This document shows, piece by piece, positions 7,345-21,087 of a stretch of 64,000 nt of DNA; the stretch's first letter is position 1, and each line of letters begins with the position of its first letter. The stretch is taken from assembly GCF_003946405.1 (NCBI RefSeq), contig NZ_RHOG01000008.1, positions 1 to 64,000 of the forward strand. Direction: 5' to 3'. The translations under genes were made by a program, and so were the position numbers. Below the pieces are notes generated by a model. The model was not told the origin of the DNA. It was given only the letters and a program-made list of their open reading frames with translations, and did not search any database. The stretch is from Lacticaseibacillus yichunensis (lineage in GTDB: Bacteria > Bacillota > Bacilli > Lactobacillales > Lactobacillaceae).

Positions 7345-7354
7345 TGTTTTTGCC

Positions 7355-7446
7355 GTAAGGCCTTGAGGCAATGATGGCTCATCGAATCGTGTCAGATCCG
7401 GAAGGAAGCAGCACTAAGGTGAGTTCGTCATGTGCCTCTTGTTTTA
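7355..7446 (+). ncRNA. ffs: Signal recognition particle RNA, small bacterial type (4.5S-like)
   Basis: Contains the invariant SRP apical sequence CCGGAAGGAAGCAGC (7398-7412), which binds the Ffh M domain. The flanks pair into a long helix: GAGGCA (near 7365) with TGCCTC (near 7432), and ATGATG with CGTCAT. The length of about 90 nt fits the short form without an Alu domain. It has its own promoter and terminator and sits between tadA and dnaX as in many Firmicutes. The exact ends are approximate. Confidence 0.9.
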
Positions 7447-7459
7447 TGCCATTATTCAT

Positions 7460-16529: not shown

Positions 16530-16548
16530 GAAGCCGCACCAAAAAATA

Positions 16549-16670
16549 AAGGAGTAGGTTGCCGTGCGTTAAGTGCCGCTGGAACGGAATGTGAACAGCG
16601 GACGAAGGCTTTGGCCGCGGTACGGCAGCCGCATTCGCCTATTGGGTTAGGCGTCTCCTACAAAGGGAGA
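16549..16670 (+). promoter_or_regulatory. Tetrahydrofolate (THF) riboswitch with translational expression platform
   Basis: The conserved THF-riboswitch words occur in order: GGAGTAG (16551), GCGTTAAGTG (16566), GGAACGGAATGT (16581), ACGAAGG and GCGGT. Pairing P2 is TTGCCGT/ACGGCA and P3 is GCCGCTG/CAGCGG. The aptamer ends near 16645. Downstream, TCTCC (16654-16658) can pair with the Shine-Dalgarno GGAGA (16666-16670). GTAGG in the aptamer (16554-16558) could instead take CCTAC (16657-16661), giving an on/off switch. The position before folT matches the known use of this class. Confidence 0.85.
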
Positions 16671-16678
16671 TTGTCATC

Positions 16679-17209
16679 ATGCAACAACCTGTTTTATCTT
16701 TGTCCAGTCCCAAAATGTCCACCCGCACCGTGGTGTACATGGCCATGTTCATGGTCTTTTCCGTGATCCTGAGCCGGTTTTCGTTTGGCAACACGTGGCT
16801 TCAGATCTCGCCGGCGTTTCTGGCGACGGTTCTGATGGGGTATTACCTTGGGCCATGGTGGGGCGCGGTCGATGCTGCGTTTGCAGATCAATTCAAGACC
16901 ATTTTGTTTTCACCGGGGAACAACTTCCCGGGCTTCACATTGACCGCCGCCGTGGCCGCGATTCTGTATGGCCTGTTTTTGCACGATCGGAAGGTCAGCC
17001 TGGTTCGCACGATCATTCCGTTCGTGTTGGTCATGGTGATCGCCAACATTTTTTTGAACACGCTGTGGCTGAACATCATGGGCACGCCATGGCAGGGCAT
17101 CATCGGCATCCGCACGGTCAAGAACCTGATCGAGCTGCCGATCAACGTCGCATTGGGTTATGCTGTTTTGAAAACAGTCGAGCGGGTCAAACCGCATATT
17201 GCGTTTTAG
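16679..17209 (+). CDS. folT: Folate ECF transporter S component FolT
   Basis: A 176-residue membrane protein with about six hydrophobic segments. It is the substrate-binding S component of an energy-coupling-factor importer. Internal features ([46 protein letters not shown], then a [15 protein letters not shown] helix) match folate S components. The folate assignment is strongly supported by the THF riboswitch in its leader. The shared EcfA/A'/T module is not in this window. Confidence 0.88.
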
Positions 17210-19679: not shown

Positions 19680-19748
19680 ATATGGCTGGAAAATTTTTGT
19701 GTGGTTCGAAATTTTTGGGAAAAGTGAGACTTTTTTCGCCCAGCCCAC

Positions 19749-20074
19749 GACAAAGAGGCCCCGAAAGGCCCCATTTTTAACTTGATGCGATTACGTGACT
19801 GCAGTGCCCTATGTGACCGCCAGCACGGTGACAACTGGCGGGACCCTTTTCACCTTGGCGGGTAACGGCGATGGAACTGTCGCTACCTCTAGTCACTATA
19901 GTAGTAATGGTGACCGTCGTGGCTTCATACCACTTAAACTAAGTCAGCGGACCTAGCCCAAGTGGCCCCGGGAAAAGCTGATGATGCTCGGAACCCGGCG
20001 CACCGGGTGGATCTCCGACTAATTGTACAGGAGAGCAGTAGGTTAGCAGGGCCTACACCTGCAATCGAGAATTC
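19749..20074 (-). ncRNA. Candidate structured non-coding RNA, class not recognised
   Basis: This ~325-nt minus-strand unit runs from a consensus promoter (20081-20109) to a terminator-like hairpin (19751-19772) and has no credible ORF. It can fold into consecutive hairpins (plus coordinates): 20035-20063 (GTAGG/CCTAC), 19989-20017 (CCCGG/CCGGG plus CGGA/TCCG), 19930-19965 (CCACTT/AAGTGG with inner CTA-GTC/GAC-TAG), 19892-19914 (GTCAC/GTGAC), 19861-19887 (GGTA-GCGA/TCGC-TACC) and 19817-19841 (CCGCCAG/CTGGCGG). I do not find the conserved words of RNase P RNA, tmRNA, 6S, SRP RNA or a T-box. Expression is inferred, not seen. Confidence 0.55.
19751..19772 (-). terminator. Terminator-like hairpin ending the candidate RNA
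   Basis: On the minus strand GGGGCC-TTTCGG-GGCCTC (one G-U pair) is followed by TTTG. The T-tract is short, so termination may be partial. Confidence 0.5.
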
Positions 20075-20080
20075 TACTTT

Positions 20081-20126
20081 ATTTTATATAGTAAGCGGTT
20101 TCTTGTCAACAAGTTTGTTTCCGCTT
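20081..20126 (-). promoter_or_regulatory. Consensus promoter with overlapping inverted repeat
   Basis: On the minus strand TTGACA (20104-20109), a 17-base spacer and TAAAAT (20081-20086). The inverted repeat AAGCGG...CTTG-TCAA-CAAG...CCGCTT (20093-20126) is centred on the -35 box and could be an operator. Confidence 0.7.
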
Positions 20127-20247: not shown

Positions 20248-21087
20248 ATGAAGATGGGAATCAGTCGATTGGGGATCGCGGGATGGCTACTTGGCGCGAC
20301 AACCCTAAAGGTATTAGTGCGGGATACTGAGACGACCGTTGATGTCTTACGCATTGCCCCGGAGCGTTTCTTTGATAGTCAGGAGCAGGAATTGAATCTT
20401 GACTATCAAACAATCTATGTAGAGGCAACGCCGACACTTGTGAGGTTACTGACGAACATTGGCACGCGGGTGAGCCTGATGGGCCATGTTCAAGCGTTCT
20501 CACAGCCGTTGTCTACTGTCCAACGCAATAAGATCAAACAGATTCATCATAATTCACGTCGAGAAGTGGTCGAGATCACACGTCACTGGCTGAGAGTTCA
20601 GGAAGCTTATTTCAATAAACACGAAAAGGCTAAGCGAACTTTAGAAGATCAGACAACGACGTATATTCACGAAGAAGTGTCACTTGTCTTGTTTCAAGCG
20701 GCTCAAAAACGCACGGCCAAGACCCTGAGCCCGCATGTCCAAGAATTTCTGCAGAGAGTTCAAAAAAAGCAACAAGAGATCATAAAGGAAAGCATCGCCC
20801 AGATCGAAGCCCTTTCCCCGGCGATCTACGTGCTCACGCGCCCGAGCCGCATCAAGGTCATCTCGACGCCGGCGTTTCGCGACGCCGTGTTGCCGCCGGT
20901 GGATTCACAGCTGGTGAAGGACCCGGTGTATCGTCATGAACGGCTCACCGCGCTCAATGACCAGCGCCGCCAGATCACGACTCACCGCGCCCACATGTAT
21001 GACCTGTCGCTTTTGCCCCCGGCGATTCGTTTTCAGCTGATGGAAGGACGCCCGCAATCGAAGCACAAACCGGCCGAGAGTAAGTGA
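20248..21087 (+). CDS. Hypothetical protein with N-terminal hydrophobic segment
   Basis: A 279-residue protein I do not recognise. A short hydrophobic stretch near the N-terminus (IAGWLLGATTLKVLV, about 10-24) could anchor it. Residues about 95-200 are rich in charged helices (IKQIHHNSRREVVEITRHWL, VQEFLQRVQKKQQEIIKESI) and probably form a coiled coil. The tail is basic. The ATG at 20248 follows AGAGGAAGGGAGAGG; GTG 20227 is less likely. The first two thirds are visibly poorer in GC than neighbouring genes, while the last third (from about 20800) matches them. It is divergent from the candidate RNA. Confidence 0.7.
   Translation: MKMGISRLGIAGWLLGATTLKVLVRDTETTVDVLRIAPERFFDSQEQELNLDYQTIYVEATPTLVRLLTNIGTRVSLMGHVQAFSQPLSTVQRNKIKQIHHNSRREVVEITRHWLRVQEAYFNKHEKAKRTLEDQTTTYIHEEVSLVLFQAAQKRTAKTLSPHVQEFLQRVQKKQQEIIKESIAQIEALSPAIYVLTRPSRIKVISTPAFRDAVLPPVDSQLVKDPVYRHERLTALNDQRRQITTHRAHMYDLSLLPPAIRFQLMEGRPQSKHKPAESK

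Follow-up and report, generated by a model that had tools for sequence, protein, structure and literature searches.

A multicopy structured RNA of Lacticaseibacillus and the divergent gene of a predicted OB-fold protein

Introduction

Several kinds of bacterial noncoding RNA invite comparison with the locus described here. The omega-RNAs of IS200/IS605-type elements are encoded together with a protein, and solitary copies of the RNA occur elsewhere. In AbiF systems, a HEPN protein that has R and H active residues and dimerises is accompanied by a structured noncoding RNA, such as RCd22 of C. difficile, which lies upstream of the protein gene and is co-transcribed with it (PMC12373285). The LhrC1-5 RNAs of Listeria are present as five copies and act by CU-rich base pairing (PMC4132741). 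ROOL, GOLLD and OLE are large, abundant bacterial noncoding RNAs with elaborate conserved folds, and lactobacilli are among their hosts (PMC12286853). A 520-nt lncRNA of L. salivarius, specific to that species and without a known function, accumulates to extremely high levels (PMC5643018).

Here we follow up an earlier note on a stretch of 64,000 nucleotides from Lacticaseibacillus yichunensis (contig NZ_RHOG01000008.1, positions 1 to 64,000; referred to as the window), which had proposed an undescribed, stand-alone structured RNA with its own promoter and terminator. We find that the RNA belongs to a multicopy family, and that it is probably one half of a two-part unit: a ~320-340-nt RNA gene (19746-20074, minus strand) and a divergent gene for a protein with a predicted OB fold and helical region (20248-21087, plus strand), whose products would likely form a ribonucleoprotein (RNP).

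Results

Layout of the window locus

The RNA gene is flanked by tsaD, which is convergent, at one end and by the divergent 279-aa protein gene at the other. Its sigma-A-type promoter, TTGACA-17-TAAAAT (20081-20109, minus strand), was correctly recognized in the earlier note: it agrees with the consensus at 11 of 12 positions and is kept across copies, and the background, at a lower threshold, is 0.8 promoter-like sites expected per shuffled kb. Transcription is predicted to start near 20074 and to give an RNA of ~325 nt (19746-20074, minus strand), a copy of what we call type A. Positions 19971-20069 form a 5' domain common to types A and B, matched by our covariance model R1 with an E-value of 2.5e-27. 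The consensus of this domain is CUCGAUUGCAGGUGURRGCCYUGCUAAC...AGCUUUYCCC, and its helix GUGURRG/CYYAC carries compensatory changes. Near the 3' end lies a hairpin that is kept across copies, GGGGCC-UUUC-GGGGCCUC, reading GGGGCCUUUCGGGGCC in the window (19772-19755, minus strand) and followed immediately by the conserved tail UUUGUCGUG (19746-19754).

Folded as a single sequence, the minus strand gives z = -2.0 (3 of 100 shuffles were equally good) and the plus strand z = -0.4. Alone, this fold is mildly unusual and unconvincing; it is the comparative evidence that convinces. As the earlier note expected of an undescribed RNA, Rfam 15 returned no match at the gathering score for the window locus, where nothing relevant appeared even to E=10, nor any match at nine related RNA loci; hits that surfaced at permissive thresholds were dismissed as chance.

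Elsewhere the window contains a THF riboswitch (16548-16642, plus strand, 81.5 bits) just 5' of a membrane-protein gene (16679-17209), and a bacterial small SRP RNA (7354-7451, plus strand, 59.2 bits). The Rfam 6S model passed its cut-off in none of the 30 genomes of the genus and gave weak matches in eight, carriers of the RNA described here (G014, G018) and non-carriers alike; 6S RNA of Lacticaseibacillus is poorly covered by that model. We looked at this distribution because the RNA described here might stand in for 6S, in which case 6S should be missing from carriers in particular.

Comparative evidence for RNA genes

The strongest evidence for RNA genes is the covariation in type C3, one of the further RNA types introduced below. 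Scored, like the others, within a single RNA type and among copies that include close paralogs, the C3 alignment (21 copies from three species) has a consensus of 79 pairs, 25 of them with compensatory changes on both sides. Its cells were paired in 97.9% of cases, a value that none of 500 shuffles matched, the figure after shuffling being 91.3%. Double-change cells numbered 123 versus 41 in shuffled alignments, and sliding the partners lowered pairing to below 47%. Pairing reaches 99% of cells in the 5' domain that types A and B share, where two helices carry compensatory changes. Type A alone (seven copies) has seven double-changed pairs, most of them in an arm that is strongly divergent in two of the copies. 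The comparison with relatives that had been suggested for the structured-RNA claim thus yielded compensatory pairs in the A/B 5' domain, in type A and in type C3; together with the dispersed copies and their conserved promoter and transcript, this bears the claim out.

The locus had also been described as lacking a credible ORF, and the copies agree. The longest closed ORFs in types A and B are short (36-75 aa) and differ from copy to copy, and internal indels nearly always break the frame: their lengths are not multiples of three in 13/13 cases in A, 20/20 in B and 171/186 in C3.

Copies and types

The window genome (G000) has eight copies of the window RNA, four of type A and four of type B. 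The two types have their first ~50 nt in common (~90% identity) and different bodies. Every copy has a TTGACA-like promoter, 320-344 transcribed nt and a GC hairpin, and homology among copies stops at the borders of this promoter-RNA-terminator unit. In a DNA search of 60 relatives, the element turned up at many places in G000 itself and in a single further species, L. mingshuiensis 117-1. Model R1, which was built from the 5' domain and searched across 30 genomes of the genus, placed exactly eight copies in G000 and nine in L. mingshuiensis (one cut by a contig end; eight to nine A/B copies) and had no credible match in the 28 further species; hits in G013 and G029 (E 0.04-0.05) were rejected, since they fall inside protein-coding genes. 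When 84,980 species were searched for the exact 5' motif, it was found in L. mingshuiensis only.

Further types were counted with each species represented by a single genome, in many cases a draft interrupted at the repeats. Type C3, the block 5' of the G014 protein, has nine matches in G014, nine in G018 and ~10 in G024; type C5, a block from G000, has seven in G000 and seven in L. mingshuiensis; and type C4, from G013, has 25 matches there and 36 in G007, partial ones included. Carrier genomes thus range from ~8 to 36 matching places, those other than G000 having 9 to 36 of their own type. Only a few RNA copies per genome adjoin a protein gene, and most are orphans. On contig 15 of G000 there is a remnant of a type B copy (L083, 4359-4400, minus strand), in which part of the 3' hairpin, the tail and the downstream terminator are left and the body is gone.

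G000 and L. mingshuiensis, the closest pair of species, have their A/B and C5 copies at orthologous loci, and the same is true of part of the C3 copies in G014, G018 and G024. With hardly an exception among the B, C5 and C3 pairs tested, a copy is nevertheless more similar to a paralog in the same genome than to its ortholog; L214 of G014, for example, is 99.0% identical to a paralog and 75.5% to its G018 ortholog. Because paralogs are closer than orthologs despite the matching loci, we conclude that the copies evolve in concert. Mean identity within versus between genomes is 96.6 versus 90.4% for type B and 84.0 versus 74.6% for C3; for types A and C5 the within-genome mean is not above the between-genome mean, so it is chiefly in B and C3 that homogenization stands out.

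In L. mingshuiensis, tsaD and pepF flank a single RNA copy (L036, L038/L039), and in G000 they lie beside separate copies (the window and L029); the remaining two flanks in this comparison stop in half-copies at contig ends. Such an arrangement would be expected if two RNA copies had recombined reciprocally, or if the repeat had been misassembled. Short-read assemblies are interrupted at the RNA repeats, through which rearrangements probably also occur.

The 3' end

The GC hairpin had been taken for the terminator of the RNA. The hairpin itself does not vary among the full-length copies of type A. What follows it, however, is UUUGUCGUG rather than a U-run, and by its sequence it is not a normal terminator. 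On the minus strand of the window, the first strong T-run terminator lies ~70 nt beyond it, in a bidirectional hairpin (~19677-19649) that serves tsaD on the plus strand and probably the RNA gene on the minus strand as well. T-run terminators, where present in other copies, lie 5-100 nt beyond the 3' hairpin signature, and in type B they follow the conserved hairpin by 5-9 nt. We also considered that variable sequence between hairpin and terminator might act as a 3' guide, and dropped the idea because of this 5-9 nt gap in B and because the downstream sequence varies irregularly.

Lineages with otherwise unrelated sequence finish alike, with a strong hairpin, UUUG, 0-2 nt and GUG; UUUG-Y-GUG tails in other lineages are the counterpart of the tail in the window. 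The signature reads GGGGCC..GGCCUC-UUUGUCGUG in type A, ..UUUAGUGUG in type B, GGACACC..GGUGCCC-UUUGCGUG in C3, GCCCACG..CGUGGGC-UUUGCGUG in C4 and CAGGCCGG..-UUUGCUGUG in C5. A scan found it on the RNA strand at 20 of the 43 protein loci discussed below, on the other strand at 6 of 43, and in 2.3% of shuffled sequences. Types C3 and C5 have UAACUNAAUA in common. They also have CUAACUNAAUA in the context of a small hairpin (L184-L187, L172, L173, L177), in RNAs that are otherwise unalike, and it may be a common functional core of the two types.

The divergent protein

Of the 30 Lacticaseibacillus genomes, 12 encode homologs of the 279-aa protein, and none that convinced us was found in ~370 other Lactobacillaceae and ~390 Lactobacillales. 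The protein matches no Pfam family (to E 0.01) and no NCBIfam family. PHROGs and PADLOC gave no significant match either, the best in PADLOC, to PrrC (E 0.004), being no better than noise. An AlphaFold model made with 56 family sequences (mean pLDDT 89.5) places beta strands within the N-terminal ~90 residues and long helices after them. The top Foldseek matches in the PDB are SSB and PriB OB folds, weak by E-value (best 0.015) and with a Foldseek probability of 0.97, and matches among viral models agree. The model therefore predicts an N-terminal SSB/PriB-like OB fold followed by a helical region, a resemblance of fold without a match in sequence.

Only two glycines are conserved in more than 80% of the sequences, and charged residues reach at most 54%. 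We found no resemblance to a transposase, RuvC-type nuclease or polymerase. Identification as a HEPN-type toxin was rejected for want of a conserved motif: no column of the alignment has RX4-6H in more than 7 of the 56 sequences, and no catalytic residue is conserved. Going by the model, the product is best read as a putative non-enzymatic nucleic-acid-binding protein. Its genes are often tandem paralogs or fusions, which suggests dimers. In G000, the second genes of two such pairs (C1:135056-135706 and one on C24; L172, L171) have in-frame stops and the counterpart on contig 14 of L. mingshuiensis is open, pointing to gene decay in some copies.

Linkage of RNA and protein

L. mingshuiensis encodes a second homolog (441 aa, 23% identity, E 4e-21) that is directly divergent from a type-B RNA copy, and the homologs examined in other species mostly have a conserved noncoding block upstream. 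Across 43 protein loci, these upstream blocks form clusters of 2-8 related sequences, in which most members have a divergent TTGACR-17-TANNNT promoter and an RNA-like block of ~310-430 nt; about five of the 43 loci have no upstream block that recurs at another locus. Placed on the protein clades, RNA type requires eight changes, the minimum, against a mean of 24.5 after shuffling, an agreement that is partly expected from shared ancestry and from the definition of the types by BLAST. Different RNA types have no significant sequence similarity to each other, and we infer their kinship from synteny with homologous proteins, size, promoter and 3' signature. Between lineages in which TsaD keeps 73-84% identity to that of the window, the proteins themselves are ~20% identical.

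The description of the RNA as stand-alone is therefore incomplete: the RNA is multicopy, homologs of the divergent gene repeatedly adjoin such RNAs, and the conserved 3' hairpin differs from a classical terminator.

Discussion

The family is restricted to Lacticaseibacillus, and a carrier genome has one to a few RNA-protein units and several to dozens of orphan RNAs of the same type. This genus, which includes widely used food and probiotic bacteria, appears to carry a class of sizeable structured RNA genes whose copy number resembles that of tRNA or rRNA genes and which are missing from Rfam. We found no description of the RNA class in the open-access literature searched; with the RNA class missing from Rfam and the protein from Pfam and NCBIfam, the system looks new.

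High copy number and concerted evolution suggest an abundant RNA, and the fast co-diversification of RNA and protein suggests either conflict or strict partner recognition. We propose that the protein, acting as a dimer, would bind its cognate RNA through the OB fold to form an RNP, with the RNA as its high-dosage component. Most likely, this abundant RNP would sequester or control a nucleic acid or protein target stoichiometrically, given that catalytic residues are not conserved and that RNA genes outnumber protein genes several-fold. More tentatively, the pairing of a dosage-amplified RNA family with a co-diversifying OB protein could represent a new, lineage-specific kind of RNP that serves either as a self-propagating element, spreading and homogenizing its own RNA genes, or as an immunity or conflict system unlike those described so far.

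A selfish, mobile RNA element would look similar in several respects. Its RNA-protein units would be autonomous and the orphans spread by the protein, like solo omega-RNAs or MITEs, which would account for dispersal to 8-36 places, the several-fold excess of RNA-only copies, the sharp ends of homology around the unit, the very fast divergence of the protein and the decayed fragment on contig 15. We nonetheless regard it as somewhat unlikely. The ends of the recent duplicate pairs inspected showed neither terminal inverted repeats nor target-site duplications, type A had no copies in the phage, plasmid and viral-contig sequences searched, and copies keep orthologous positions between the two closest species and, for some, among G014, G018 and G024. 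Nor does the protein resemble a transposase, nuclease or polymerase or conserve a catalytic residue.

Unlikely, too, is an RNA-antitoxin or RNA-dependent defence module resembling AbiF or type III toxin-antitoxin systems, in which abundant RNA would hold a harmful or antiviral protein in check. AbiF provides the precedent of a structured noncoding RNA acting as antitoxin by direct binding (PMC12373285), and the small adjoining protein gene, the tandem or fused paralogs, the patchy distribution (12 of 30 species) and the rapid co-diversification would all suit such a module. The RNA, however, is divergent rather than upstream and co-transcribed, many of its copies are orphans, and the protein rises above noise with none of the PADLOC models, matches neither Abi_2 nor any other Pfam family and lacks a conserved HEPN RX4-6H motif.

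The presence of several homologous, promoter-driven copies in one genome recalls trans-acting base-pairing sRNAs such as LhrC or the csRNAs, for which the protein would be a dedicated chaperone. Types A and B have a conserved stretch, CUCCUGUMCAAU, that could pair with Shine-Dalgarno regions, and upstream of type B copies there is a conserved TTTTTCGTAAGCGYTCACAA (for example at L010 ~1398-1430), which resembles a CcpA cre or other LacI-family operator, so that the RNA genes may be under carbon-source control. The CU-rich stretch is not seen in C3 and C5, however, the transcripts, 310-430 nt long, are folded along their entire length, and conservation over the whole RNA exceeds what a seed needs; we consider this explanation quite improbable.

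Repetitive intergenic DNA of the REP, ERIC or BOX kind, without RNA function, would explain dispersed intergenic repeats and the G021 tsaD/pepF junction as a rearrangement between copies, but is very hard to reconcile with a promoter conserved at a fixed distance, a multi-branched structure with 25 compensatory pairs and the occurrence, in many species, of divergent genes from a single protein family next to the copies.

The two-part unit of RNA and OB protein that we favor can be set against each of the known systems. Like omega-RNAs, the RNA is encoded with a protein gene and has solitary copies elsewhere in the genome, although there is no homology to RuvC, TnpB, IscB or TnpA, and we found neither 3' guide logic nor transposon ends. 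It resembles the LhrC RNAs in having several promoter-driven copies per genome, and differs in that the copies reach the tens, the RNA is a multi-branched one of 310-430 nt and a protein family is associated with it. AbiF and its noncoding RNA are the closest described arrangement: in both cases a structured RNA lies beside a dedicated protein gene and the link was inferred from conserved co-localization, and AbiF dimerises. The HEPN domain that defines AbiF is missing here, where we find instead a predicted OB fold with helices and no conserved catalytic residues, a divergent RNA and RNA copies that are mostly orphans. With ROOL, GOLLD, OLE and the L. salivarius lncRNA the family has in common an elaborate conserved fold and hosts among the lactobacilli; compared with ROOL, GOLLD and OLE, to which it has no Rfam match, it is shorter, forms a chromosomal multigene family and has an associated protein. 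In habit, the closest described RNA is the L. salivarius lncRNA (PMC5643018).
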